Translations under genes and position numbers: made by a program
From: Coriobacteriia bacterium
GTDB lineage: Bacteria > Actinomycetota > Coriobacteriia > Anaerosomatales > SLCP01
NCBI GenBank assembly: GCA_030603745.1
Contig: JAUVXE010000017.1
Span: 1-36,530, forward strand
DNA: 36,530 nucleotides
Reading direction: 5' to 3'
Shown here: positions 1-22,283 of the stretch, piece after piece
How positions within the stretch are numbered: position 1 is the stretch's first letter
Layout: each line of letters starts with the position of its first letter
Notes under the pieces: model-generated
Seen by the model: only the letters and a program-made list of their open reading frames with translations
Databases searched by the model: none
What the model was told of the DNA's origin: nothing

Positions 1-183
1 CCCGCGCCCGCCTCGCCCGCGACACCCGCCGCGCCCGCCGGCGACGCGTCGCCGCCCTCAGCGGCCGCGCGGCTCCTCGCGCGGGCGGGCGCCTTCGAGT
101 CGGGACTCCTCGCCTGGGCGACCGCGTGCTCGGCGATCGGCGTGCTCGGCGTGCTGCTCCTCATCCTCGCCGCGCGCGGGTAG
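1..183 (+). CDS. C-terminal end of an unidentified membrane protein (5' truncated by window)
   Basis: Frame 1 is open from the first base to a TAG at 181-183 and encodes 60 residues. The visible part is a Pro/Ala-rich linker (PAPASPATPAAPAGD), a short amphipathic stretch, and a hydrophobic segment close to the C-terminus containing LGVLLLILAARG, which reads as a final transmembrane helix followed by a charged end. Pro/Ala linkers before a terminal helix are common in high-G+C envelope proteins, but the family cannot be named from this fragment. Its last 23 bases overlap tail-to-tail with the AlkD-like gene on the other strand. Confidence 0.55.
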   Translation, partial: PAPASPATPAAPAGDASPPSAAARLLARAGAFESGLLAWATACSAIGVLGVLLLILAARG

Positions 184-880
184 CCGCGGCCTTCTCACGC
201 AGCTCGCGCGCCGCGTTGCGCCCGGTCGTGCGCGCCGCGCGCTCCGGGGAGGCCGCGAGCTCGTCCGCGAGCGCGAGGGCCTCGTCGGCGAGCCGTCCGC
301 CGCGCTTGCCGATCGCCCGCAGCGCCCACTCCACCCCCTTGCGCACCATCGGACGGCCGTCGCCGGACTCCCGTCTCACGAGCGCGAGCAGGGGGACGAA
401 CTCCTCGGAGGGGGCGTCTTTGGCATGGACGGCGAGTTGGGCGGCGAGGACGAACGCCGCGCGCTTGACGAACAGCTCCTCGCGCGCCGCCCACCCGTGC
501 GCGAGCTCCCAGGCGTGCGGCGAGCGGCGCAGCAGGTTCGAGCAGAGCTGGTCGCAGACGTCCCACGAGTCGACGTCGAGCGCCCACGCCTCGGCCTGCT
601 CCCGCGTCACGAGCGAGGGCTCGTCCACGATCGCCGCCATGATCCGCGCTTCGTGCACGCCCGAGTCCCACAGGCACGCGGCCACCTCATGCCGCCACGC
701 GCCCTCGCGCCGCCGTCCGGCGCACGCCTCCTTCACCAGGGCACGCGCCTCGGCCACGGTCACCCCGAGTGTGCCTTCCGAGGAGATCCCGTAGCGTGCC
801 ATCCCCGCCACGTTCGCCGGGTCCGCGCGCTCGCGGAGCGCGGCGAGCAGCGCGGAACAGGTGGCGCGGGCGTCGTCCAC
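161..880 (-). CDS. DNA alkylation repair protein, AlkD-like HEAT-repeat glycosylase
   Basis: 239 residues, close to the usual AlkD length of about 235. AlkD enzymes excise N3- and N7-alkylated purines without flipping the base. The landmarks line up with Bacillus cereus AlkD: the early RYGIS segment (29-33) matches the KMYGV region, SWDVCD supplies W106 and D110 with the same four-residue spacing as AlkD W109 and D113, R140 in VKRAAFVLA matches R148, and W185 in GVEWALRAIGKR matches W187. The body is nearly all helical, as expected of HEAT-like repeats. The start is GTG with a GGAGG ribosome site five bases upstream. The gene diverges from the nitroreductase. Function as a repair glycosylase is inferred from these residues. 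Confidence 0.88.
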   Translation of the reverse strand: MDDARATCSALLAALRERADPANVAGMARYGISSEGTLGVTVAEARALVKEACAGRRREGAWRHEVAACLWDSGVHEARIMAAIVDEPSLVTREQAEAWALDVDSWDVCDQLCSNLLRRSPHAWELAHGWAAREELFVKRAAFVLAAQLAVHAKDAPSEEFVPLLALVRRESGDGRPMVRKGVEWALRAIGKRGGRLADEALALADELAASPERAARTTGRNAARELREKAAATRARRG

Positions 881-10006: not shown

Positions 10007-11350
10007 ATGGGAACCTACACGACCGAACTGCTGCTGGTCCTCGGACTCATCGTCCTGAACGGCTACTTCGCCGCCTCCGAGATCGCGCTCATCAGCGTGC
10101 GCAGGGCGGTGCTCAAGAAGAAGGCGGACGCGGGACACCCCGCGGCCAGGGCGGCCATCGAGCTCACCGACGACCCCTCGCGGCTGCTTGCGACCATCCA
10201 GATCGGCATCACGATGGTCGGCTTCCTCGCCTCGGCGACCGCGGCCGTCAGTCTCGCCGCCCCACTGGCGGAGTGGCTGCGCTCCTTCGGCAACGCGTGG
10301 CTCTCGAGCGTGTCGCAGGGGCTGGCGATCCTGCTCGTCACCTTCACCATCGCCTACATCACGCTCGTCTTCGGTGAGCTCGCGCCTAAGCGGCTCGGGC
10401 TGCAGCGCGCCGAACGGGTGTCGCTGCGCGTCTCGCGCGTCGTCCTCTTCCTCGCGCGACTTCTCAGCCCGGTGGTCTGGCTGCTCGCCCGTTCGACCGA
10501 CGTCGCCGGCAGGCTTCTCGGCGTGAAGGGCAAGGGCGGCCAGGAGGGCGTCACGGAGGAGGAGATCAAGCTACTCGTCACCGAGCAGGGGACCTTGCTC
10601 GAGGAGGAGAAGCGGATGATCCACGAGATCTTCGAGCTCGGCGACACCGTCGCGCGCGAGGTCATGGTCCCCCGTGTCGACGTGGTGTTCGTCGAGGACA
10701 CCCGCACGATCGGCGAGGCGTTGCACCTCTTCCGCACGCGGGGATTCTCGCGGCTGCCGGTGGTCCACGAGGACGCCGACAGGGTGGTGGGGGTGGTCCT
10801 GCTCAAGGACCTCGTCGGACCCGCTGCCGAAGGGCGCCTCGGCGATCCGCTCACCGACCATCTGCGGCCCCCGGTGTTCGTGCCGGAGACCAAGCCGATC
10901 CTGCCGCTCCTCTCCGAGATGCAGCGGCTTCGCAACCACATGGCGATCGTGGTGGACGAGTACGGGGGCACCGCCGGCATCGTCACGATCGAGGACATCG
11001 TCGAGGAGATCATCGGTGAGGTGGCCGATGAGTTCGACCCGGACCTGCGGTTCGTGACCGAGCTCGGGCCGGGACGGTGGGTGGTCGACGGACGCCTGCC
11101 GGTCGAGGACGCGCGCGAGATGGGGCTTCCGGTGGAGGAGTCCGACGAGTACGAGACCGTCGCCGGATGGATGCTCGTGCGTCTTGGGCATATACCGGTT
11201 CCGGGAGAGCGCGTCGAGCACGAGGGCGTGAGCTTCCAGGTCCAGGCGGTCCGCAGGAGGCGGATCGCCCGACTGCTCGTGTCCCGCGACGGGACGCCGG
11301 CGGAGGGGGCCGCCCCGGAGGCGGCCGGGCCGCGGGTGGACGAGGAGTGA
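10007..11350 (+). CDS. CNNM/CorC family membrane protein (hemolysin C-like, CBS domains)
   Basis: 447 residues from ATG 10007. Domains in order: CNNM (DUF21) membrane domain at 1-175 with three or four helices, including LNGYFAASEIALIS (17-30) and the TMVGFLASATAAV segment; two CBS motifs at about 218-275 and 282-336, with FSRLPVVHEDADRVVGVV in the first and MAIVVDEYGGTAGIVTIEDI in the second; and a CorC_HlyC C-terminal domain at about 350-425. Relatives take part in magnesium or cobalt handling through nucleotide binding at the CBS pair; hemolysin in the family name is historical. It heads a run of six genes spaced by four bases or fewer or overlapping, apart from one 33-base gap. Confidence 0.93.
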   Translation: MGTYTTELLLVLGLIVLNGYFAASEIALISVRRAVLKKKADAGHPAARAAIELTDDPSRLLATIQIGITMVGFLASATAAVSLAAPLAEWLRSFGNAWLSSVSQGLAILLVTFTIAYITLVFGELAPKRLGLQRAERVSLRVSRVVLFLARLLSPVVWLLARSTDVAGRLLGVKGKGGQEGVTEEEIKLLVTEQGTLLEEEKRMIHEIFELGDTVAREVMVPRVDVVFVEDTRTIGEALHLFRTRGFSRLPVVHEDADRVVGVVLLKDLVGPAAEGRLGDPLTDHLRPPVFVPETKPILPLLSEMQRLRNHMAIVVDEYGGTAGIVTIEDIVEEIIGEVADEFDPDLRFVTELGPGRWVVDGRLPVEDAREMGLPVEESDEYETVAGWMLVRLGHIPVPGERVEHEGVSFQVQAVRRRRIARLLVSRDGTPAEGAAPEAAGPRVDEE

Positions 11351-11352
11351 GC

Positions 11353-11901
11353 ATGGGACAGAAGACGCTCTATCGCAGCAGGACCGACCAGATGCTCGGC
11401 GGCGTGTGCGCCGGCATCGCGGACTACTTCGGGATCGACCCGACGGTGGTGCGACTGGTGGCGGTCTTCCTGCTGCTCGCAAGCAATGTCGCCGTCGTGG
11501 TCGCCTACGTCGTGCTCTGGGTCGTCGTCCCCGAGGAGCCGTCGGGCGTCCCGGTCGAGGGAGGGGTCAGCACCATGTCCGATACCGAGACCCCGGGCCG
11601 CACCAGCGTGCCCGGACCCGACAGCCCGCCACCGCCACCGCCCCCGGGGGTCGCGCCGCCGCTCGATGCGGCCGGGGCCTCCGCCCGGCCGACCCCGACC
11701 CCGGCCCCTGCAGCGCCCGCGCACACGGCTCCCGCCCGCCAGGGGCGGGGCGGCGTGTGGTTCGGGGTGGCGCTGATCTTCGTGGGCGCCGTGCTGCTGG
11801 CGCAGATGTTCGTGCCGGCGCTGTCGTTGTGGCAGTTCTGGCCGGTCATCGTGATCGTCGCGGGCGTGCTCATGGTGTTCGGCCGAGGGGGGCGGACGTG
11901 A
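11353..11901 (+). CDS. PspC domain protein with C-terminal LiaF-type membrane segment
   Basis: 182 residues from ATG 11353, two bases after the CNNM stop; GAGGAG of the ribosome site lies within the previous coding end. The PspC domain (about 4-62) reads LYRSRTDQMLGGVCAGIADY then FGIDPTVVRLVAVFLLL and a membrane helix. A Pro/Ala/Thr-rich linker follows (about 75-133, with a run of eight prolines interrupted once). The C-terminus has two short membrane helices (GVWFGVALIFVGAVLLA and FWPVIVIVAGVLMVF), the DUF5668/LiaI-like pattern. PspC proteins sense or transmit envelope stress at the membrane. Stop and next start overlap by one base (TGATG). Confidence 0.9.
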   Translation: MGQKTLYRSRTDQMLGGVCAGIADYFGIDPTVVRLVAVFLLLASNVAVVVAYVVLWVVVPEEPSGVPVEGGVSTMSDTETPGRTSVPGPDSPPPPPPPGVAPPLDAAGASARPTPTPAPAAPAHTAPARQGRGGVWFGVALIFVGAVLLAQMFVPALSLWQFWPVIVIVAGVLMVFGRGGRT

Positions 11902-12821
11902 TGACGCTCAAGCGCGTGCTCGAGGGCGTGACCCTCATCCTCATCGGCGTGATCCTGCTTCTCAACACGACCGGCCAGCTTCCGTGGTCGGTCTGGTGGT
12001 CCGTGCTCAGCCTCTGGCCGCTCCTGCTCGTCGCGGCCGGCCTCGACATCGTCGCCAAGGGGCTGGACACCGAGTGGCTCCGGGCGCTGTCGAGCCTGCT
12101 CGTGATCGCCGGGCTCGTCGTGGGCGCGTTCGTGCTGCCGGTCACCGGCGGTCCGTGGGGACTCGGCTGGATGGTGGGCCCCGCGAGCGACTTCGAGGTC
12201 GCGACCGACCGGCCGGCGCGCGTGAACGAGGGCCGGGCGGTCCTCAGGGGCGGCGCCGGCACCTACACCGTCGCGGCCGGCTCGGCGGACGAGCTCGTGC
12301 GCGTGAGCGGCCGGGGCGCGTTCGGCGAGCCGCGGGTGGACGTCGAGACCACGGACCGTCGTGCCGATGTCACGATCTCCGCCGAGGAGGGCCGCGCGTG
12401 GATGCCGCACATGGGTGGCGCGACCCGCGCCGACGTCCGGCTCTCGCCCGAGGTGGTGTGGGACCTGCGGATCGAGACGGGCGCGGTCGACCTCGACGTC
12501 GACCTCGAGGAGGTCCCCATCTCGGCGCTCGACGTGAGGTCGGGGGTCTCCTCGGCGACCGTGAGACTGGGTGAGCCGGCAGGGAGGGAAGAGGTCCCGG
12601 TGCGAGTGCGGGGCGGCGTGTCGAGCTTCACGCTGCTGGTGCCCCGGGGCGTGCCCGCGCGGATCGAGGGCGCCGCGGGCCTGTCGAGCATCGACGTCGA
12701 CCGGGCCTACACGCGCCTCGGCGGCGATCGGCGCGTCTGGCAGTCCGATGACTGGGGCCGCGGCGGCTACGACATCCGGTTCGAGGCCGGCGTGTCGAGC
12801 GTGACGGTGCAGACGTACTAG
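11901..12821 (+). CDS. LiaF-like envelope-stress protein (membrane domain plus beta-rich domain)
   Basis: 306 residues from ATG 11901, overlapping the previous stop as TGATG. The N-terminal 85 residues hold about four hydrophobic segments (GVTLILIGVILLLNTTG, WPLLLVAAGLDIVAKG, LLVIAGLVVGAFVLP), the LiaI-LiaF transmembrane pattern. Residues 95-306 are a beta-solenoid-like region with recurring GVSS turns (GVSSATV, GVSSFTL, GLSSIDV, GVSSVTV), matching the toast-rack/DUF2154 domain of LiaF-type cell-wall-antibiotic-response proteins. Flanking PspC genes suggest all three work together at the membrane. No LiaRS two-component pair is present in the window. Confidence 0.85.
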   Translation: MTLKRVLEGVTLILIGVILLLNTTGQLPWSVWWSVLSLWPLLLVAAGLDIVAKGLDTEWLRALSSLLVIAGLVVGAFVLPVTGGPWGLGWMVGPASDFEVATDRPARVNEGRAVLRGGAGTYTVAAGSADELVRVSGRGAFGEPRVDVETTDRRADVTISAEEGRAWMPHMGGATRADVRLSPEVVWDLRIETGAVDLDVDLEEVPISALDVRSGVSSATVRLGEPAGREEVPVRVRGGVSSFTLLVPRGVPARIEGAAGLSSIDVDRAYTRLGGDRRVWQSDDWGRGGYDIRFEAGVSSVTVQTY

Positions 12822-12839
12822 CGCGGGCCGCGGCCCGCG
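12822..12839. repeat. Perfect 18-base GC palindrome between envelope genes
   Basis: CGCGGGCCG is followed at once by its reverse complement CGGCCCGCG, beginning at the base after the LiaF-like stop and ending 15 bases before the next start. The ribosome site GAGGAG follows it directly. It could lower downstream translation or protect the upstream message end. Confidence 0.6.
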
Positions 12840-12854
12840 AGAGGAGTGGGGACT

Positions 12855-13340
12855 GTGAGCGGTGGAGGACAGGGGCAGAGCCGTCCCGAGGCGCGGGGCG
12901 CCTACGTCGTCATCGGAGTGGTGCTGATCGTGGTGGGGCTCGGGTTGCTCGCGGGCGTCCCGCTGTTCGGGTGGTCGTGGGGCGCGCTCTCCAACGTGAT
13001 GCGGGAGGTGCGCCAGGTGGGCTGGCCGCTGGCGGTGGTCCTCCTCGGCGTGGCGATCATCGTCTACAGCCGTCGCCCGGGGGCGCGCCTGCCCTCGAAG
13101 GAGGCCCGGCTCACGCGCTCCCGCGACAAGAAGATGATCGCGGGCGTGTTCGGCGGGCTGTCCGACTACTTCGGCGTGGACGTCACGGTGCTCCGGATCG
13201 CCTTCCTCGCGGTGGCGTTCCTCTTCGACCTGTGGGGGCCGTTCATCGTGGGCTACATCGCGGCCGCAGTGATCGTGCCCATGGCCGCGGAGCGCCTCGT
13301 GCCGACGCCGGACGAGCCGGTCTGGCCCGAGAAGGGGTGA
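12855..13340 (+). CDS. PspC domain protein, C-terminal PspC form
   Basis: 161 residues from GTG 12855, chosen because GAGGAG ends eight bases before it; an in-frame GTG at 12846 overlaps that ribosome site. Two N-terminal membrane helices (YVVIGVVLIVVGLGLLAGV and GWPLAVVLLGVAIIVY) are followed by a basic linker and a PspC domain at about 92-150: LTRSRDKKMIAGVFGGLSDY, FGVDVTVLRIAFLAVAFLF, then GPFIVGYIAAAVIVP. The order of membrane pair and PspC domain is the reverse of that in the PspC gene at 11353. The amidohydrolase starts four bases after its stop. Confidence 0.88.
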   Translation: MSGGGQGQSRPEARGAYVVIGVVLIVVGLGLLAGVPLFGWSWGALSNVMREVRQVGWPLAVVLLGVAIIVYSRRPGARLPSKEARLTRSRDKKMIAGVFGGLSDYFGVDVTVLRIAFLAVAFLFDLWGPFIVGYIAAAVIVPMAAERLVPTPDEPVWPEKG

Positions 13341-13344
13341 GCGC

Positions 13345-14283
13345 GTGACGCGCCTGGCCCCGGCACCGCCGACCCGCGTCGGGGACGTGGTCGACGCTCA
13401 CTGCCACCTGTTCGCCATCGCGATCTTCGAGGAGTACGTCGCCGCGCACCCCGAGGGGGCCCCGCGGTTCCGCGAGGCGCTCAAGGAGCGCAAGTTCGGC
13501 CGCCGCGGCGAGTCGATCCCGGACATGCCCGCCGAGGAGATGGCGGCATGGTACGCGCGGCGGCTCGCCGACGCGGGGATCGCCAAGGCGCTCATCGTCT
13601 CCGTGGTCCCCGACAGCGAGTACACGCGTCGGTTCATCGGCGCGGCCAACGGGCACATCCACGCGCTGTGCAACCTCGACCCGCGTGACCCGGGCGCGCC
13701 GGCGCTGCTCGAGCGTGAGATGGCCGCGGGCTTTCGCGGCGTGAAGCTGCTGCCGGTCAACCGGTGCTTCCGCCTCTCCGACCCGGCGTGCCGTCCACTC
13801 TTCGAGAAGGCCGCCGAGCTCGGCGCGCCGATGATCGTGCACTACGGGGTCACGGTCGATCCCGGCGGGGACCTGCGCTACGCCGACCCGATCGACCTCT
13901 CGCCGGTGGCCCGCGACTTCCCCGAGGTCACCTTCGTGGTCGCGCACTTCGGCGCCGGCTACCTCGACCAGGTGCTCAAGGTCGCCTACCAGTGCCCCAA
14001 CGTCGCCATCGACTCCTCGGGGACGAACAACTGGATGGACTCGATGGCCGTGCCCATGACCCTCGCGCAGGTGTTCGAGCGCTCGATCACCGCGCTCGGC
14101 CCCGAGCGGGTGCTCTTCGGGACCGATTCGGGCACGACCGGCCCGTACCGCTCGTGGATCGCCTACCAGCAGCGCGAGACGTTGCGCGGGCTCGGGCTGC
14201 TCGAAGGCGACCTCGATCTCGTGCTGCGCGGCAACGCCGTGAGGATCTTCGACCTCGACCGTCCCGGAGGTGAGCAGGCATGA
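13345..14283 (+). CDS. Amidohydrolase family protein (Amidohydro_2, metal-dependent TIM barrel)
   Basis: 312 residues from GTG 13345 with GAAGGGG upstream. Metal and catalytic positions of the Amidohydro_2 (PF04909) family are visible: DAHCHL (H19, H21), GVKLLP with K134 on the strand-4 position, PMIVHYG (H166), VVAHFGAGY (H201) and LFGTDSG (D261). Family members are decarboxylases or hydrolases of aromatic and small-ring acids; the substrate is not evident. The end overlaps the methyltransferase start as ATGA, so the two are translationally coupled. Confidence 0.86.
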   Translation: MTRLAPAPPTRVGDVVDAHCHLFAIAIFEEYVAAHPEGAPRFREALKERKFGRRGESIPDMPAEEMAAWYARRLADAGIAKALIVSVVPDSEYTRRFIGAANGHIHALCNLDPRDPGAPALLEREMAAGFRGVKLLPVNRCFRLSDPACRPLFEKAAELGAPMIVHYGVTVDPGGDLRYADPIDLSPVARDFPEVTFVVAHFGAGYLDQVLKVAYQCPNVAIDSSGTNNWMDSMAVPMTLAQVFERSITALGPERVLFGTDSGTTGPYRSWIAYQQRETLRGLGLLEGDLDLVLRGNAVRIFDLDRPGGEQA

Positions 14284-15119
14284 CCGGACCGCGGCAGGGC
14301 GGTGTGGAGCCCGCACGCGACTACGACCAGATGGTGGACTGGGGCAAGCGCCTCGGTCGCGAGGAGCCGTTCTTCCGGGGGCTCTTCGCCGAGGCGGGCG
14401 TGCGACGCGTGGTCGACGTGGGCTGCGGCAGCGGTCAGCACGCGATCATGTTCGCGGGCTGGGGGCTCGAGGTCGCGGGCGTCGACCCGAGCGGGCCGAT
14501 GCTCGCGCAGGCGAGGGACAACGCGCGGGCGGCGTCGGTGGGCGAGCCGGGACTGCGCTTCGTCGAGGGCGGTTTCGGCGAGGTCGAGGCGCTCCTCGGC
14601 GGAGGATGGGACGCGATCGTGACGCTCGGCAACGGGCTTCCGCACGTCGACGGGCCCGCGGGGCTCGCGGCCACGCTCGCCGACTTCGCGGCGGCGCTCA
14701 GGCCGGGCGGCGTGGTCGTGCTGCACCTGCTGAACCACCGGCGGCTGCTCGACGGCCGCATCAGGATGCTGCCCGCGGTGCTGCGCGAGACCGAGGAGGG
14801 CGACCGGGTGTTCCTGAAGGTCCTCGACTACGTCGAAGACGGGATCATGTTCGACTTCGTGACGCTCACGCGCGACGCCGAGGTGGGGCCGGGGGCGGAC
14901 AACGCGTTCACCTACGACGATCCGGCCGCGACCGGATGGCACCTGCGCTCGCGCCGGTCGGTCCACACCGCGCTCCCCGTCGACCTGCTCGAGGACGCGC
15001 TCGACGGTGCCGGGTTCACCGGGGTGCGCGCTCTCGGCGACCACACGGGCCGCGCGCTCGACGTCGGCGCCGACGAGTCGGTCATCGTCGTCGCGCGACG
15101 GGCGGGCGAGGAACGCTAA
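14280..15119 (+). CDS. Class I SAM-dependent methyltransferase
   Basis: 279 residues from ATG 14280, overlapping the amidohydrolase stop by four bases. Motif I is VVDVGCGSGQH (44-54), followed by the acidic end of strand 2, VAGVDPSGPM (66-74), and a strand-4 motif DAIVTLGNGLPHV near 115-127 in place of the usual D.V. core. The remaining part includes LRPGGVVVLHLLN, typical of the Methyltransf_25 fold. The substrate is unknown; coupling to the amidohydrolase suggests both act on the same compound or pathway. Confidence 0.88.
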   Translation: MTGPRQGGVEPARDYDQMVDWGKRLGREEPFFRGLFAEAGVRRVVDVGCGSGQHAIMFAGWGLEVAGVDPSGPMLAQARDNARAASVGEPGLRFVEGGFGEVEALLGGGWDAIVTLGNGLPHVDGPAGLAATLADFAAALRPGGVVVLHLLNHRRLLDGRIRMLPAVLRETEEGDRVFLKVLDYVEDGIMFDFVTLTRDAEVGPGADNAFTYDDPAATGWHLRSRRSVHTALPVDLLEDALDGAGFTGVRALGDHTGRALDVGADESVIVVARRAGEER

Positions 15120-15161: not shown

Positions 15162-15848
15162 TCAGGGGCAGGAGGCGCCGGCGACGAGCCGCGGCCCGAG
15201 CTGGCAGCGCGCGTGGCGAGCGGCGTCGCACGCGGTCACCGGCGCGGTCGGCCTCGGCAGGCCGAGGGCGTCGCGGGAGCGACAGAGCGCCAGGAAGACG
15301 TGGCACAGCGGGATGCCGGCCACGTTCTGGTAGCACTGGTCGGCGTCGACCTCGGCGAGATGGCTCTCGATGTTGTAGGCGCCCGCGCACCCGAGGACCT
15401 CGCCCTTCGCGAGCCACGCCTCGACCGTCTCGGCGGCAAGCTCGCGCATCCGCACCGGGGTGACGACCGAGAACGTCTCCGGCGCGGTGGCGTCGGGCGC
15501 GAGCAGCGCGACGCCGGTGGCCACGCGGTGCGTGCGGCCGGAGAGCGCGGCGAGCATCGCGCGGGCCTCGTCGAGGTCGGTCGGCTTGCCGAGCACGCGG
15601 TCGCCGTCGACCACCACGGTGTCGAGCGCGAGGATCGCGCCGGTCGTGCCCGCGGCACGGGCCGCGACCGCCTTCTCGGCGGCGAGCGCCGCGACGAGCG
15701 CGGGCGGGTCGGCGGCGAGCGGGCCGTCGATCTCCTCGGCGGTGTCCGTGACGGTGCACGCGTAGGGCACCTCGAGCATCGCGAGGAGGCGGCGTCGGCG
15801 CGGCGAGGCCGAGGCGAGCGTGAGCGGGGTGTCGGCGCGCGGGGTCAT
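15162..15848 (-). CDS. maf: Maf family nucleotide pyrophosphatase
   Basis: 228 residues from ATG 15848. Maf proteins hydrolyse dTTP, UTP or modified nucleotides to monophosphates and limit misincorporation. The N-terminal signature is LTLASASPRRRRLLAMLEV, and the catalytic strand is ALDTVVVDGDRVLGKP with D at about 75. Later conserved parts are LSGRTHRVATGVALL and GCAGAYNIE. The ordinary Maf length is near 190-200; this one carries a C-terminal extension of about 30-40 residues with several cysteines. A -10 element seven bases before the ATG implies a leaderless transcript. It diverges from the HEAT/HD-GYP operon. Confidence 0.92.
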   Translation of the reverse strand: MTPRADTPLTLASASPRRRRLLAMLEVPYACTVTDTAEEIDGPLAADPPALVAALAAEKAVAARAAGTTGAILALDTVVVDGDRVLGKPTDLDEARAMLAALSGRTHRVATGVALLAPDATAPETFSVVTPVRMRELAAETVEAWLAKGEVLGCAGAYNIESHLAEVDADQCYQNVAGIPLCHVFLALCRSRDALGLPRPTAPVTACDAARHARCQLGPRLVAGASCP

Positions 15849-15855
15849 GGGGGCG

Positions 15856-15893
15856 ATGATAGCACCCGCGCCCGGCGCCGTAGCGCCTATAAT
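15856..15893. promoter_or_regulatory. Divergent promoters of maf (-) and the HEAT/HD-GYP operon (+)
   Basis: Minus strand: TGC-TATCAT (15864-15856) is an extended -10 seven bases ahead of the maf ATG, predicting a leaderless mRNA. Plus strand: TATAAT (15888-15893) is an exact consensus -10, with a predicted start near 15900 and a ribosome site GAGGAGG before GTG 15929. Neither has a clear -35. The two -10 elements are only about 26 bases apart, so the polymerases would exclude each other. Confidence 0.6.
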
Positions 15894-15928
15894 GGGAGAC
15901 GCCCCGCCACCTTGCCGAGGAGGACCAG

Positions 15929-18076
15929 GTGTCCGGCCCCACACAAGCAGCCGCCGTGCCCGTGGCGGTCGAGCGGTTCGTGAAGCAGCTCGTCATCACC
16001 CACAAGGCGGTGGCCCTCTATCCTCCGGCGAGCTCGATCCCGCGCGAGAACGCCGCCGACGCGGTGGCCCTGCTCGAGGCGCTCCTCGTCGAGCGGCCCG
16101 AGATGCGCCTCGGGGTGACCAAGGACGCGCTCGTCCACGGCGGGCTCCCCGTCTTCGCCGGTCAGGCGGCGTTCGTCGCGTTTGCGCAGGAGCTCTACAA
16201 CCGCACCGTGTCGGAGGTGCGCTTCCACGCGGGCGTGACCGCCGAGGGGCTCGTCGCCTTCCTCGGCGCGATGCGCGTGCCCCTCGGCGAGCTCGCGTCG
16301 ACGGGAGGCATGAGCGCGCGCCTGTGGGACGCGGGAGTGGACGCGATCACGGTGCTCGAGGCGGTCACCACGGTGATCGACCAGGGCGAGCTGGCGGACG
16401 CCGAGGACGAGGGCGCACCGTGGCCGCCGCCGGCCTCGCGGATCGACGAGCTGCTGGCCGAGCTCGGCGCGGGGATCGCGCGCGACCGCCGCACGCTCGT
16501 GCGGGTGGTGCTCGACGCCGAGGTGACCGCCGCGTACCTCGGCGAGGCGTTCGCGCGCCACGAGGGCGACCCGCTCGCCGCCGCGCGCGAGATCGACATC
16601 GTCGGGCTCGCCCGAGCGGCCGACCGCCACGCGGGCGATTCGCGGGCCGAGGCGCTCCAGGCGCTCGCCGACGCGGTGCGCGCGCTCGACCTCGCGGACC
16701 GCCGGGCGCTCATCGCCGGCCGCCTCCTGCCCGAGGCGCGCACGGACGAGTCGGTCGCCGCGCTCGTGCGCCAGATGGGCGTGGACGCGGTGTGCCGCTC
16801 GCTCGTGGAGGGCCTCGGCGAGAGCGACGTCTCGAGTGACGCGCTCGCGCGCGCGCTGCGAAACCTCGCGCTGATCAGCATGGCGGGACGCGACGAGATA
16901 CTGAACTCCTCCGGCGCGGCGATGCGCGCGGCCGGCTTCTCCGAGACCGCCGTGGACGCGGTGCTCGAGCAGGTCGCTCCCTCGCGGCTCGTGGAGCGCG
17001 AGCACGCGGGCGAGGCGCGCGCCGAGGCCGCGGTGAGCTCGATCATGCAGCTCGTGGATCTCGCGCCCTCGGTGACCGGGCGTGCCGACGAGGACCCGGC
17101 GCTCGCCGCGCTGCGCGACGAGGCGCGGGCGGGCATCACCGACGGCGACGTCATGGGCGCGCTCGTGACGGTGGCGACCGCCGAGACGGACGAGGCCGGG
17201 TTCGCGCAGTCGATGGACGGGCTGGAGGCGGGGCTCGAGCTGCTCATCGAGCGCGGTGAGTTCGCGGTGGCCGCGGATGCCGCCGAGGCCCTGCTCGCGG
17301 CCGCCGAGCAGGCCGAGGGGGAGCGCTCGGAGCGGCTCGTGGCCGCGGTCGGCCGCCTGGCGGGCGCCGCCGAGATGCGCTCCGTCCACGAGGCGCTCCG
17401 CATCTACCGCAAAGGCTCGCCCGAACACGAGGCGTGCCTGCGGCTGCTCGCCGCCCTCGGCACGCTCGCGATCGACCCGCTCCTCGAGGTGCTCGCCGAC
17501 GAGCCGGATATGGCGGTCCGCAAGTCGCTCGTCGAGCTGATCTCGACGATCGCTGACCGCCACATCGACGAGGTGGGCGAGCGCGTGACCGACGGCCGCT
17601 GGTACGTGGTGCGAAACGTCGTCTCGATCCTCGGCGCGACCCGCCGGGCAGAGATCGTGCCGTTCCTCGGCAGGACGATCCGTCACGCCGACGGCCGCGT
17701 GCGGCGCGAGACGATCCGCGCGCTCGCCGGGGTCCCGGCCGCGCTCGCCGAGACGATGCTCGCCGCCGCGCTCGAAGACGACGACCCGCAGAACGTCCAG
17801 CTCGCCGCCCGCTACCTCGGCAGCAGGCGCTCGCACGCGGCCCTGCCGGCACTCGAGCGCGTCGCGCGAGGCGAGGGGCGCGGCAGCCGGGAGCACGGGC
17901 CGCGGGTCGAGGCGATCGAGGCGCTCGGGACGATCGGCGACCCGGCCGCGCTCGCCACGCTGCGCACGCTCGCGGGGAGGAAGCGCCTGCTCGGCGGGGG
18001 TCGGGGCAAGAGCGTGAGCGCGGCGGCCGAGGCGGCCATCGAGGCGATCTCGGTGGCGGGGAAGGAGCAGCGATGA
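15929..18076 (+). CDS. HEAT-repeat protein with N-terminal module shared with the HD-GYP neighbour
   Basis: 715 residues from GTG 15929, preceded by GAGGAGG. Residues about 13-130 form a mixed alpha/beta module (VALYPPAS, LVHGGLPVFAG, VSEVRFHAGVTAEGLVAFL) that resembles the N-terminus of the next protein. The middle, about 150-490, is helical and Ala/Arg/Glu-rich with weakly periodic helices. From about 500 to the end are clear HEAT repeats: LLAALGTLAIDPLLEVLADE, VRKSLVELISTIADRH, VRRETIRALAGVPAAL, AALPALERVARGEG and AIEALGTIGDPAAL. No signal peptide or membrane helix is visible, so it is probably a cytoplasmic scaffold. It overlaps the HD-GYP gene as ATGA. Function unknown. Confidence 0.82.
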   Translation: MSGPTQAAAVPVAVERFVKQLVITHKAVALYPPASSIPRENAADAVALLEALLVERPEMRLGVTKDALVHGGLPVFAGQAAFVAFAQELYNRTVSEVRFHAGVTAEGLVAFLGAMRVPLGELASTGGMSARLWDAGVDAITVLEAVTTVIDQGELADAEDEGAPWPPPASRIDELLAELGAGIARDRRTLVRVVLDAEVTAAYLGEAFARHEGDPLAAAREIDIVGLARAADRHAGDSRAEALQALADAVRALDLADRRALIAGRLLPEARTDESVAALVRQMGVDAVCRSLVEGLGESDVSSDALARALRNLALISMAGRDEILNSSGAAMRAAGFSETAVDAVLEQVAPSRLVEREHAGEARAEAAVSSIMQLVDLAPSVTGRADEDPALAALRDEARAGITDGDVMGALVTVATAETDEAGFAQSMDGLEAGLELLIERGEFAVAADAAEALLAAAEQAEGERSERLVAAVGRLAGAAEMRSVHEALRIYRKGSPEHEACLRLLAALGTLAIDPLLEVLADEPDMAVRKSLVELISTIADRHIDEVGERVTDGRWYVVRNVVSILGATRRAEIVPFLGRTIRHADGRVRRETIRALAGVPAALAETMLAAALEDDDPQNVQLAARYLGSRRSHAALPALERVARGEGRGSREHGPRVEAIEALGTIGDPAALATLRTLAGRKRLLGGGRGKSVSAAAEAAIEAISVAGKEQR

Positions 18077-19509
18077 GCGCGGGACCGCGCGGCCAGGGCG
18101 TCTCGTTCTCCGCGAGCCAGCTTCGCCGGGTGCGGGACCTGCTCACCCGCCTCTACGCGGCCCGCCGCACCGCCCGTTTCTACCCCGCCGACCACCAGGC
18201 GACGGTCGCCGGGGTCGCGGAGCTCAAGGCCGTGATCGAGCGCTTCCACCAGGAGGGCGTGGACATCGCGCTGACCTTCCACGAGGGCGAGCTCATCTTC
18301 GGCGACCAGATCATGCCGCAGGAGAGCATCCTGTTCGACCAGCTGATCCGCGAGATGGGCTCGCTGGGCATCGGCAGTCTCGAACTCGTCAGGGGCCTCA
18401 GCGCCGCCGAGCTGACGCGCGCGATGTCGGTGCTCGCCACCGACCCGCTCGAGGTCGAGCGCCGGGGAGGGATCGCCCGCCTGGCCGAGGAGGCCGACCT
18501 CAAGCACGTGCGCATCGGCAAGGTGCGCGCCATCGAGCGGGCGCCGGCCGAGGGCGACGAGGCCGAGCGCGCGCAGGCGGCCTACCGCGGCGCCATCGAC
18601 CTGATGCGCGAGATCGACGAGCTCGTGCGGCGCAACCGCGAGATCGGGACCGCCCGCATCAGGGGCGTCGTGCGGGGGCTCACCGAGAGCGTGCTCGAGA
18701 ACCGGGGCGCGATGCTCGAGCTGACCGGGCTCAAAGACCACGACGAGTACACCTTCTACCACTCGGCGAACGTCTCCATCCTCTCGCTCGCGCTCGGCTC
18801 CACCATCACCGACGATCCGCGCTTCCTCGCCTCCCTCGGCGTGGGGTCGCTCCTGCACGACGTGGGCAAGATGACCATCGAGCCGGAGGTGCTCAACAAG
18901 CCGGGGGCGCTCACGCCCGAGGAGTGGGCGGAGATCCGGCAGCACCCGGTGTCCGGAGCGCGCACCGTCGCACGGATCCCGGGGCTCGACATGTCGGCGA
19001 TCGTGGTGGTCCTCGAGCACCACATGCGCTACGACGGCTCCGGCTACCCGGAGCGCACCCCGCGCTCGCCGCAGCATCTCGCCTCGCGGATCGTCGCGGT
19101 CGCCGACGCCTACGACGCCATGACCTCGCGCCGCTCCTACAGCGCCGCCCGGATGCACGACGAGGCGATGGAGCTGCTGGTCAAAGGGGCGGGGACCGCG
19201 CTCGACCCGGCCCTCGTGCGGCTGTTCGTGAACATGATGGGCGTCTACCCGCCCCGTTCCGTGGTACGGTTGAGCGACGGGGCCACCGCGGTGGTCGCCC
19301 GCCCCGGGGCCGGCGACCCGCTGCGTCCCGTGGTCAGGGTCGTCTCGACCCCGGCCGGCGAGATGGTCGAGCCGTACCGTCTCGACCTCGCCGAGGAGGG
19401 CGCGCCGCAGATCGCGCGCACCGTGGACCCGACGGACCTGAACATCGACATCGACGAGTATCTCCGTGAGCGCGACGTGGCGCTCCGGGGCGAAACGACC
19501 CCATCCTGA
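18073..19509 (+). CDS. HD-GYP domain protein, probable cyclic-di-GMP phosphodiesterase
   Basis: 478 residues from ATG 18073, overlapping the HEAT gene stop. Residues about 20-155 are the N-terminal module resembling that of the upstream protein (ARFYPADH, ELIFGDQIMP, LVRGLSAAELTRAM). The HD-GYP domain, about 205-390, has its metal residues: H230 in FYHSANV, H262-D263 in LHDVGKM, H291, H316-H317, D345, and the hallmark DGSGYP (321-326). The third position of the usual HHE is methionine. A C-terminal segment (about 395-445, VRLSDGATAVVARPG) is of the type often found after HD-GYP. No membrane helix is visible, so signalling is likely cytoplasmic. Degradation of c-di-GMP is inferred from the family. 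Confidence 0.92.
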   Translation: MSAGPRGQGVSFSASQLRRVRDLLTRLYAARRTARFYPADHQATVAGVAELKAVIERFHQEGVDIALTFHEGELIFGDQIMPQESILFDQLIREMGSLGIGSLELVRGLSAAELTRAMSVLATDPLEVERRGGIARLAEEADLKHVRIGKVRAIERAPAEGDEAERAQAAYRGAIDLMREIDELVRRNREIGTARIRGVVRGLTESVLENRGAMLELTGLKDHDEYTFYHSANVSILSLALGSTITDDPRFLASLGVGSLLHDVGKMTIEPEVLNKPGALTPEEWAEIRQHPVSGARTVARIPGLDMSAIVVVLEHHMRYDGSGYPERTPRSPQHLASRIVAVADAYDAMTSRRSYSAARMHDEAMELLVKGAGTALDPALVRLFVNMMGVYPPRSVVRLSDGATAVVARPGAGDPLRPVVRVVSTPAGEMVEPYRLDLAEEGAPQIARTVDPTDLNIDIDEYLRERDVALRGETTPS

Positions 19510-19517
19510 GAAAGGAC

Positions 19518-22283
19518 GTGGCCGAGACCGTGTCTTCCACCCCTGCGCGCCGTCCCCGTACGCTCACCGTCATCGTGTTCGTCGTGCTCTTCTTCGGCCT
19601 GCCGTTCCTGGCGTGGCTCGCGACGTTCCTCACCGACTACCTGTGGTTCGTCGACCTCGGCCAGGAGGAGGTGTTCGTCACGACCCTCGTGAGCCGGGTG
19701 GCGACCGGCCTGGCGTTCGGGGTGGCGGCGTTCCTGCTCTTCTTCGTGAACGCGCGGATCGCGCGCTCGATGGCACCGCGGGCGGTCCTGCTGTCGGCGA
19801 GTGGCGAGATGCCGCCGCAGTTCGAGGAGTTCGTGGCGCAGCTGCGCGGCACGCTCGGGCCGATCGTCGACAAGGTCGTGCTCTGGGGCTCGGCCGGTCT
19901 CGCGCTCATGCTCGGGCTCGCGATGTCGGCCAACTGGGACCTCATGCGGCTCGCGCTCGGCGCGGTGCCCTTTGGCGTGACCGACCCGCAGTTCGGGCGC
20001 GACGTGTCGTTCTTCATGTTCACGCTGCCGGCGCTCCGCGCCATCGCGGACTGGCTCACCCCGCTCCTCGTGCTCGTCACGGCGTTCACCGCGGTGGTGC
20101 ACCTCGTGGACGGCGCCATCCAGCCGTGGGCCCGGCTCAAGGGCTTCGCTCCCCACGTCAAGGCGCACCTCTCGGTCCTGCTCGGCCTGATCGTGGCGAG
20201 CCGGGCGTTCGACTACTACCTGCGCATCTTCGAGCTCAACTTCTCGCCGAGGGGGCAGGTCACCGGAGCCTCCTACACCGACGTGAACGCGCAGCTCCCG
20301 GCGTTGCGGATCCTCATCGCGATCGCGCTCGTCTCGGCGGCCGCGCTCCTCGTCAACATCCGCTTCAAGGGCTGGCGCCTGCCGATCATCGCGCTCACGG
20401 TCTGGGTGGGGGCCTCGTTCCTCGCCGGCAACCTCTATCCGAGCCTCATCCAGCAGTTCCGCGTGGCGCCCAACGAGGCCTCCGCCGAGGCGCCCTACAT
20501 CGCCCGCAACATCGAGGCCACGCGCGCGGCCTACGAGCTCGAGGACGTCGAGACCAGGCCCTTCCCGGCCGCCGAGACCCTGACCGCCGAGGATGTCGTG
20601 GCCAACGAGGACACGCTCGACAACGTGCGCCTGTGGGACCCCAACATCGCGGGGCAGACCTACCGCCAGCTGCAGGTCATCCGGACGTACTACGAGTTCG
20701 CCGACGTCGACATCGACCGCTACGAGGTCGATGGCCGCATGCGGCAGGTTCTCGTGTCCGCCCGTGAACTGGACACCTCCCAGCTCGCCGAGCAGGCGCA
20801 GACCTGGCTCAACCAGCACCTCGTCTACACGCACGGCTACGGCCTCGTGATCAGTCCGTCGAACGAGGCGGACAGCCGCGGGTTCCCGAACTTCTGGGTG
20901 GGCGACATCCCGCCCGAGTCGATCGAGGGTCTCGAGGTCGAGCAGCCGGCGATCTACTTCGGCGAGATGACGCGGGACTACGTGATCACGAACACCGGGA
21001 TCGCGGAGTTCGACTACCCGGTGGGCGAGGGGCGCGCCGAGACGTTCTACGAGGGGGAGGCCGGCGTGAAGGTCGGCTCGTTCCCGCGCCGCGCCGCGTT
21101 CGCGCTGCGGTTCGGGGCGCCGCAGATCGTCTTCAGCCAGTACATCGACTCGGAGAGCCGGGTGCTGTTCGATCGCGACATCCTCACGCGCGTCGAGAAG
21201 CTCGCGCCGTGGCTCACGCTCGACAGCGATCCCTATCCCGCTCTCGTCGACGGCCGCATCGTGTGGATCGTCGACGCCTACACCACCTCGAACCGCTACC
21301 CGTACTCGCAGTACTTCCGTGGCGTGAACTACGTCCGCAACTCGGTGAAGGTCACCGTCGACGCCTACGACGGCACGACCACGCTCTGGGGCTTCGACCC
21401 CTCCGACCCGATCCTCCAGGCGTGGCAGGGCATCTTCCCCGGCCTCATCACCGCCGAGGCGGAGATCCCCGACGCGATCCGCCGCCACTTCCGCTACCCG
21501 GAGGGCCTCTTCGCGCTGCAGGCCGAGGTCTACAAGACCTACCACATGACCGACCCGCGCGACTTCTACAACAAAGAGGACGCGTGGGAGCTGCCCGGTG
21601 AGCGGGAGGGCAGCCCCATGGAGCCGTTCTACGTGCTGATGCGGCTGCCCGGCGAGGTCACCGAGGACTTCCAGATGATCCAGCCGTTCACGCCGCGCAA
21701 CCGCGACAACATGATCGGCTGGATGTCGGTCAAGTCAGACCCCGAGGACTACGGCAAACGGGTCGTCTACACCTTCCCGCAGGGGCGGGTGATCCTCGGC
21801 CCTGAGCAGGTGGGCGCGCGGATCAACCAGGACGACGTCATCGCGCCGCAGCTCACGCTCTGGAGCCAGCGCGGGAGCGACGTGATCTTCGGCAACATGC
21901 TCGTGGTGCCGCTCGAGGACTCGATCGTCTACGTGCAGCCGCTCTACCTGCAGGCCGAGCAGACGGCGATCCCCGAGCTCGTGCGGGTGCTCGTGGTCTA
22001 CGGCGACAAGGTCGAGATGGCGACCGACCTCGAGGCCGCGCTGCTAGCGGTGTTCGGTGAGCGGCCCGCCGGCGAGCCCGGCCCCGGCGAGCCCGGCGCT
22101 CCGGGAGTGCCTGCCGACGCCGCGCGCGCCGCCGAGCTCTACCGCCAGGCGATCGACGCGCAACGCGCCGGCGACTGGGCGGAGTACGGGCGGCTCATCG
22201 AGGAGCTCGGTCGCGTGTTGCAGGAGCTTTCCGGGCCGGTCGTGCCCGCGGCTCCCTCTGCCGAGGAGACCGTCACGCCCTAG
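19518..22283 (+). CDS. UPF0182 family membrane protein
   Basis: 921 residues from GTG 19518; a GTG at 19530 is equally possible, because AAAGGA at 19511-19516 is too close to the first and far from the second. The first third holds about seven membrane helices, beginning VIVFVVLFFGLPFLAWLAT, with the family's WFVDLGQEEVF loop after helix 1. The rest is a large extracytoplasmic region with long conserved blocks (VRLWDPN, YYEFADVDIDRY, EFDYPVGEG, YPYSQYFRGVNYVRNSVKV, VMRLPGE). The C-terminus has a Pro/Gly/Glu linker and an acidic helical end. UPF0182/COG1615 proteins occur mainly in actinobacteria and some cyanobacteria; their function is not established. It lies nine bases after the HD-GYP gene. 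Confidence 0.93.
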   Translation: MAETVSSTPARRPRTLTVIVFVVLFFGLPFLAWLATFLTDYLWFVDLGQEEVFVTTLVSRVATGLAFGVAAFLLFFVNARIARSMAPRAVLLSASGEMPPQFEEFVAQLRGTLGPIVDKVVLWGSAGLALMLGLAMSANWDLMRLALGAVPFGVTDPQFGRDVSFFMFTLPALRAIADWLTPLLVLVTAFTAVVHLVDGAIQPWARLKGFAPHVKAHLSVLLGLIVASRAFDYYLRIFELNFSPRGQVTGASYTDVNAQLPALRILIAIALVSAAALLVNIRFKGWRLPIIALTVWVGASFLAGNLYPSLIQQFRVAPNEASAEAPYIARNIEATRAAYELEDVETRPFPAAETLTAEDVVANEDTLDNVRLWDPNIAGQTYRQLQVIRTYYEFADVDIDRYEVDGRMRQVLVSARELDTSQLAEQAQTWLNQHLVYTHGYGLVISPSNEADSRGFPNFWVGDIPPESIEGLEVEQPAIYFGEMTRDYVITNTGIAEFDYPVGEGRAETFYEGEAGVKVGSFPRRAAFALRFGAPQIVFSQYIDSESRVLFDRDILTRVEKLAPWLTLDSDPYPALVDGRIVWIVDAYTTSNRYPYSQYFRGVNYVRNSVKVTVDAYDGTTTLWGFDPSDPILQAWQGIFPGLITAEAEIPDAIRRHFRYPEGLFALQAEVYKTYHMTDPRDFYNKEDAWELPGEREGSPMEPFYVLMRLPGEVTEDFQMIQPFTPRNRDNMIGWMSVKSDPEDYGKRVVYTFPQGRVILGPEQVGARINQDDVIAPQLTLWSQRGSDVIFGNMLVVPLEDSIVYVQPLYLQAEQTAIPELVRVLVVYGDKVEMATDLEAALLAVFGERPAGEPGPGEPGAPGVPADAARAAELYRQAIDAQRAGDWAEYGRLIEELGRVLQELSGPVVPAAPSAEETVTP

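Follow-up and report, generated by a model that had tools for sequence, protein, structure and literature searches.

A HEAT-repeat protein and an HD-GYP-domain protein that begin with the same module are encoded by an old, co-inherited gene pair

Results

The locus and its genes

The window analyzed here, the whole stretch of 36,530 nucleotides whose positions are used below, is one contig (G000:C28) of a high G+C Coriobacteriia genome of 2.14 Mb that is 98% complete. It carries three genes on the + strand, read in the same direction, for a HEAT-repeat protein (orthologue A, single copy in this genome), an HD-GYP-domain protein and a UPF0182 membrane protein:

15888-15893, + strand: TATAAT, possible -10 box in the divergent gap of ~80 bases to maf (seen by eye; no matching -35; absent from the consensus scan)
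15929-18076, + strand: HEAT-repeat protein, first gene of pair A, 715 aa (GTG start, GAGGAGG just before it; Pfam)
15962-16369, + strand: shared module in the HEAT protein, residues ~12-147 (hhalign; AF2; profile match G000:C28:15947-16369, E 6e-46)
17135-18073, + strand: C-terminal HEAT solenoid, residues ~403-715 (Pfam HEAT_2; AF2; VIA-align to alphaRep HEAT proteins, Z ~20)
18073-18076, + strand: ATGA start-stop overlap of the HEAT and HD-GYP genes, 4 bases (sequence)
18073-19509, + strand: HD-GYP protein, second gene of pair A, 478 aa (Pfam; AF2 model)
18112-18522, + strand: shared module in the HD-GYP protein, residues ~14-150 (hhalign; AF2; profile match, E 6.2e-48)
18730-19215, + strand: HD-GYP domain; metal ligands H230, H262, D263, H291, H316, H317 and D345 kept, as is K266; M at 318 (HHM, not HHE); S357 in place of PmGH K317
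19518-22283, + strand: UPF0182 membrane protein, order-specific third gene of the operon, 921 aa (GTG start; Pfam)

The preliminary description of this DNA had correctly reported the ATGA overlap; the nine bases that it placed before UPF0182 are in fact eight (19510-19517), counted from the HD-GYP stop codon to the GTG. On the opposite strand, maf as listed (15162-15944) shares 16 bases with the HEAT gene, and its conserved start is more likely an ATG near 15848, which leaves the divergent gap with the TATAAT. A consensus promoter scan reported only one site, downstream from UPF0182. The region farther upstream (10007-15119) encodes CNNM/CorC-like, LiaF-like and PspC envelope-stress-type proteins, an amidohydrolase and a methyltransferase, in a synteny conserved across the order. 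Also conserved near the three genes in the order is a short standalone protein matching a cyanophycin-synthase-like N-terminal domain (PF18921; 24108-24587, + strand).

Pfam recognizes HEAT_2 (PF13646) in three stretches of the first protein (E 3.5e-11, 43.7 bits against a cut-off of 27.7), HD_5 in the second (E 2.5e-25) and UPF0182 (PF03699) in the third (E 1.6e-290, 966 bits, residues 18-782, profile 2-770 of 770), and it finds no domain in the N-terminus of either the HEAT or the HD-GYP protein. The C-terminal solenoid of the HEAT protein, supported by Pfam and by an alpha-solenoid model, is common to HEAT_2 and PBS-lyase-type HEAT repeat proteins, whereas its N-terminal module matches no HEAT or other Pfam family.

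A homologous module at both N-termini

The preliminary description had proposed that the HEAT and HD-GYP proteins start with the same module, with profile comparison and fold prediction as the checks. Using profiles built from 22 HEAT and 20 HD-GYP orthologue N-termini, hhalign aligned the two with 97.84% probability (E 6.7e-13) over 131 gapless columns at 15% identity, whereas controls with reversed profiles and with eight unrelated neighbour families gave 0.07% to about 8.2%. Among the other pairs of paralogue groups (see below) most match well, the weakest being HD_C versus HD_X (47%). Two-sequence BLASTP of the N-termini gave no match (E 5), which we do not count as a refutation because the profile comparison is decisive; moreover, a sequence search with the HD-GYP N-terminus reaches HEAT N-termini directly in several genomes (e.g., G003:C1:1512414, E 5.3e-8).

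AlphaFold, with only the window plus a few database loci as input, models both modules with pLDDT mostly 70-95 and with helices (H) and strands (E) in the same order. There are ten elements in the HD-GYP module (H14-36, H42-60, E65-70, E73-76, H86-97, E102-105, H111-121, H125-130, H134-140, E146-149) and eleven in the HEAT module, where one hairpin strand is split off (H12-30, H36-53, E58-63, E68-70, E73-75, H80-91, E94-100, H105-114, H119-124, H128-134, E140-144). The two N-termini are one homologous alpha/beta module of about 135 residues, as had been proposed, although the HEAT part (~12-147) is slightly longer than the residues 13-130 first given.

When 19 diverse module members were compared with Pfam, no family matched more than one of them (best E 0.025), and a PDB sequence search with the module profile returned chance-level matches, the best being a designed protein (E 0.01). 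We leave the fold of the module alone unnamed because the HD-GYP and HEAT parts take up the whole-model matches from Foldseek and VIA-align. Past the two initial helices, the order of strands and helices resembles that of STAS domains, a likeness that we do not take as identity.

An old gene pair, inherited as a unit

The HEAT protein is present in 67 genomes of the sampled class, all belonging to the window's order, and the HD-GYP N-terminus likewise in 67. A module profile search of the window's genome returns exactly four proteins, two from pair A and two from another HEAT/HD-GYP pair, located on contig C8. Gene neighbourhoods (up to 20 kb) resolve three paralogous pairs in the order: A, which is accompanied by UPF0182; B, divergent from A at about 5 kb and seen nowhere in the window's family; and C, located elsewhere. 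The HEAT gene comes first and the HD-GYP gene second in all A, B and C loci examined that contain both genes, and the genes as called overlap by 4 bases in 18/21 A, 5/6 B and 6/15 C loci. In the trees of both the HEAT and the HD-GYP protein, A, B and C each form one clade with full support, and neither tree shows any sign of partner exchange between them; the pairs therefore duplicated and diverged as units.

Pairs are also found outside the order: 28 in 28 genomes of the phylum sample, with 1.7-2.3 kb from module to module. The spread beyond the phylum, seen in a few genomes, comprises two pairs in each of two Eisenbacteria-type genomes searched whole (one of them Candidatus Eisenbacteria) and one pair in an acidobacterium. 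Thus the HEAT and HD-GYP genes are kept together elsewhere, across phyla (the preliminary description had proposed this check for all three genes), and they constitute an old gene pair that is inherited as a unit. As to a second conserved neighbour, no consistent gene accompanies the pairs outside the order (SecA and GH18 twice each; Rrf2, UDP-glucose dehydrogenase and a methyltransferase once each). The GH18 glycosidase gene directly follows the HD-GYP gene in two lineages (L135:6782-7957, L136:2712-4007), and SecA has this place in L139 and L146.

The association is asymmetric. Outside the order, every module HD-GYP gene read with a readable flank has a HEAT gene just upstream, and 45 module genes of the phylum sample lie outside any detected pair. 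Of these, nearly all that were read encode lone HEAT proteins of about 760-1270 residues, and stand singly, with no neighbour that recurs; about a dozen genomes carry such genes but no detected module HD-GYP. One apparently unpaired gene (G191) really belongs to a pair whose HEAT gene has no detectable module, and another (G382) is cut by the contig end. Hence HEAT repeats are the primary companion of the module: A module HD-GYP is accompanied by a HEAT partner, but a module-HEAT protein need not have an HD-GYP one. Other lineages of the phylum have single-chain fusions in the order GGDEF-AAA-module-HEAT (L147:4021-8193, - strand, 1390 aa; L161:6591-10454, + strand, 1287 aa).

These data bear on the chief alternative to a HEAT/HD-GYP complex, namely that each protein uses the module independently, as a sensor or homodimerisation domain, the genes being adjacent through a common signal without contact between their products. 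Lone module-HEAT proteins are common elsewhere in the phylum, so the module needs no HD-GYP partner encoded alongside, and its position between AAA and HEAT in the GGDEF fusions resembles that of an exchangeable sensory domain. However, the presence of a HEAT gene directly upstream of module HD-GYPs, wherever the flank was readable, and the trees without partner exchange speak against separate use, and strict coupling with overlapping genes usually means a complex. We therefore regard separate use as rather unlikely, and a HEAT/HD-GYP complex as plausible.

The HD-GYP active site differs between the paralogues

We compared the module HD-GYPs with characterized structures, following the residue numbering of PmGH (PMC4159591). 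All 21 pair-A sequences keep the equivalents of H189, H221, D222, K225, H250, H276, H277, D305, R314 and the GYP Tyr; the HD dyad and metal ligands (H189, H221, D222, H250, H276, H277 and D305) are thus complete both in the window protein and across pair A (21/21). PmGH E185 is replaced by Tyr in paralogues A and C. A Tyr at this position is expected for two-metal HD-GYP sites. The canonical HHExxDGxGYP motif is not intact: The window protein reads HHMRYDGSGYP, and the Glu is absent from all readable module HD-GYPs, which have Met, Gln or Ile instead. The DG of the motif is kept in 14/21 pair-A sequences, and the K317 equivalent is Ser in all of them. In paralogue C, the catalytic, metal-binding His of the HD dyad is replaced by Tyr in 19/19 sequences (LLYDxGK, not LLHDxGK), and the DG Gly by Leu or Met. 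Paralogue B lost the GYP Tyr in 5/7 sequences and the R314 equivalent in all. The second module HD-GYP of the window's genome, which also reads LLYDxGK, belongs to pair C (L075:7934-9553, - strand; G000:C8:47933-49552).

Since no paralogue retains the HHE Glu and the R314 and K317 equivalents vary, c-di-GMP hydrolysis by module HD-GYPs is uncertain; because of the missing Glu, we call the window protein an HD-GYP-domain protein and not a proven phosphodiesterase. Judging from these residues, the pair-A protein, with its two-metal ligand set, may be an active, perhaps slow, phosphodiesterase, and activity of the pair-B protein is doubtful. The pair-C protein is almost certainly inactive as a catalyst and, given the loss of the catalytic His, probably a c-di-GMP receptor or a pure regulator.

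The best structural matches of the HD-GYP model are HD-GYP proteins, including c-di-GMP-bound DvhD. Paralogue A has the HD-GYP fold of PmGH (4mcw), PA4781 (4r8z) and DvhD (9rbz), with the metal ligands H189, H221/D222, H250, H276/H277 and D305, K225 and the GYP Tyr; it differs from them in the E185-to-Tyr change, in the replacement of the HHE Glu by Met, Gln or Ile, in its N-terminal module and in the HEAT gene directly upstream. The best match of all is Bd1817, an unconventional HD-GYP protein of Bdellovibrio (3tm8/3tmb; Z 23.8, rmsd 3.1, 222 residues), over a range that reaches the N-terminal part: Whole-model alignments place residues 32..390 on 4..306 of one chain and 29..391 on 19..307 of another, and other alignments begin at residue 87. 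By sequence, the match to Bd1817 covers only the HD part (profile 207-372). Bd1817 was reported to be inactive (PMC4159591).

The window's genome encodes 14 GGDEF and 12 HD_5 domains, the two module HD-GYPs scoring lowest among the 12. It also contains a tandem cluster of c-di-GMP proteins, three adjacent genes whose open frames of about 780-820 aa each combine GGDEF with HD_5 (G000:C2:186641-192094). The c-di-GMP link of the preliminary description thus holds in part: The HD-GYP domain, the GGDEF and HD_5 content of the genome and the two GGDEF-fused module proteins elsewhere speak for it, and the absence of the HHE Glu leaves the activity uncertain. An alternative is that the HD-GYP half is no c-di-GMP protein at all, its metal site serving another substrate or a structural switch, with the pair as a general scaffold. 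The loss of the Glu in all readable members, the Ser at the K317 position throughout A, the losses in B and C and the low HD_5 scores would fit such a protein. Yet the metal ligands and GYP Tyr are fully conserved in A, the closest structures are HD-GYP proteins with c-di-GMP-bound DvhD among them, and GGDEF is fused to module-HEAT proteins elsewhere, which makes this alternative, in our judgment, improbable.

UPF0182 is an order-specific neighbour

The window protein is a full-length, in itself unremarkable member of the UPF0182 family (PF03699, COG1615), and only its operon position is lineage-specific. It directly follows the pair-A HD-GYP gene at constant spacing in 61/65 genomes of the order. 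Two of the four exceptions are contig ends (G147, G089). In the other two UPF0182 is missing: G059 (94% complete; L148) keeps the pair and the full neighbourhood synteny, and in G143 (L150) the locus runs 6.8 kb beyond the pair without it. Pairs B and C lack UPF0182, as do all 28 pairs outside the order (0/28 adjacent), most of whose genomes encode it elsewhere; where a genome outside the order has both module and UPF0182, the two are listed on separate contigs or >100 kb from each other. In the phylum sample, UPF0182 occurs in 197/296 genomes, most of them without the pair, and the module in 45. UPF0182 and the pair are therefore independent of each other, and the conservation of the three genes together, which the preliminary description had wished to see across genomes, holds for the order and does not extend beyond it.

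Even within the order the adjacency carries limited weight, because maf, methyltransferase, amidohydrolase and RlpA-like genes, with no evident link to the pair, are conserved around it as well. Despite its constancy in 61/65 genomes, a functional complex of all three proteins, in which the HEAT/HD-GYP unit would control the membrane protein, is the least supported reading and very improbable in view of this flanking conservation, the distribution of both partners and the two losses of UPF0182. The earlier suggestion that the pair possibly acts on UPF0182 is thus weak, and a role of UPF0182 as general target finds no support. UPF0182 joined the pair-A operon in one order, where it may be co-regulated or a lineage-specific client. 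No published test of UPF0182 function was found in the accessible part of the open-licence literature.

Discussion

The HEAT and HD-GYP proteins begin with the same module, and their genes have been passed on and duplicated together in several phyla; this points to a joint function. We give an even chance to the view that they are the two halves of one c-di-GMP signalling unit, brought together by their homologous modules. The HEAT protein would be a solenoid scaffold that docks a client, and the HD-GYP protein a divergent partner that senses or cleaves c-di-GMP. The most likely role of the module would be to join the two by hetero-association of homologous domains, possibly beside homodimers, and the HD-GYP half, by binding or cleaving c-di-GMP, would then alter which client the HEAT solenoid docks on. 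Of this picture, the module homology, the gene order, the co-inheritance and the active-site residue patterns are shown, and the contact, the role of the module, the ligand and the regulation of a client are inferred.

Searches of the open-licence literature returned no report of HEAT/HD-GYP pairs. The parts are of known kinds; their combination, the module and the co-duplication of putatively active and dead pairs appear undescribed. Only tentatively do we propose a widespread, undescribed class of two-protein c-di-GMP switches, in which a HEAT scaffold and an HD-GYP protein would act through an unnamed module, with an enzymatic pair A and a dead receptor pair C side by side in one order and GGDEF-fused versions elsewhere.

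Known partners of HD-GYP proteins are, to our knowledge, few. In this case, a likely partner is encoded alongside, carries the common module and is co-inherited, so that the search for a target reduces to a simple pull-down. Pfam has no entry for the module despite its occurrence in several phyla. Paralogue C, predicted to be dead throughout, beside the metal-competent A offers a natural comparison of receptor and enzyme roles, and the pair as a whole opens a way to study HEAT-repeat proteins in bacterial second-messenger signalling.
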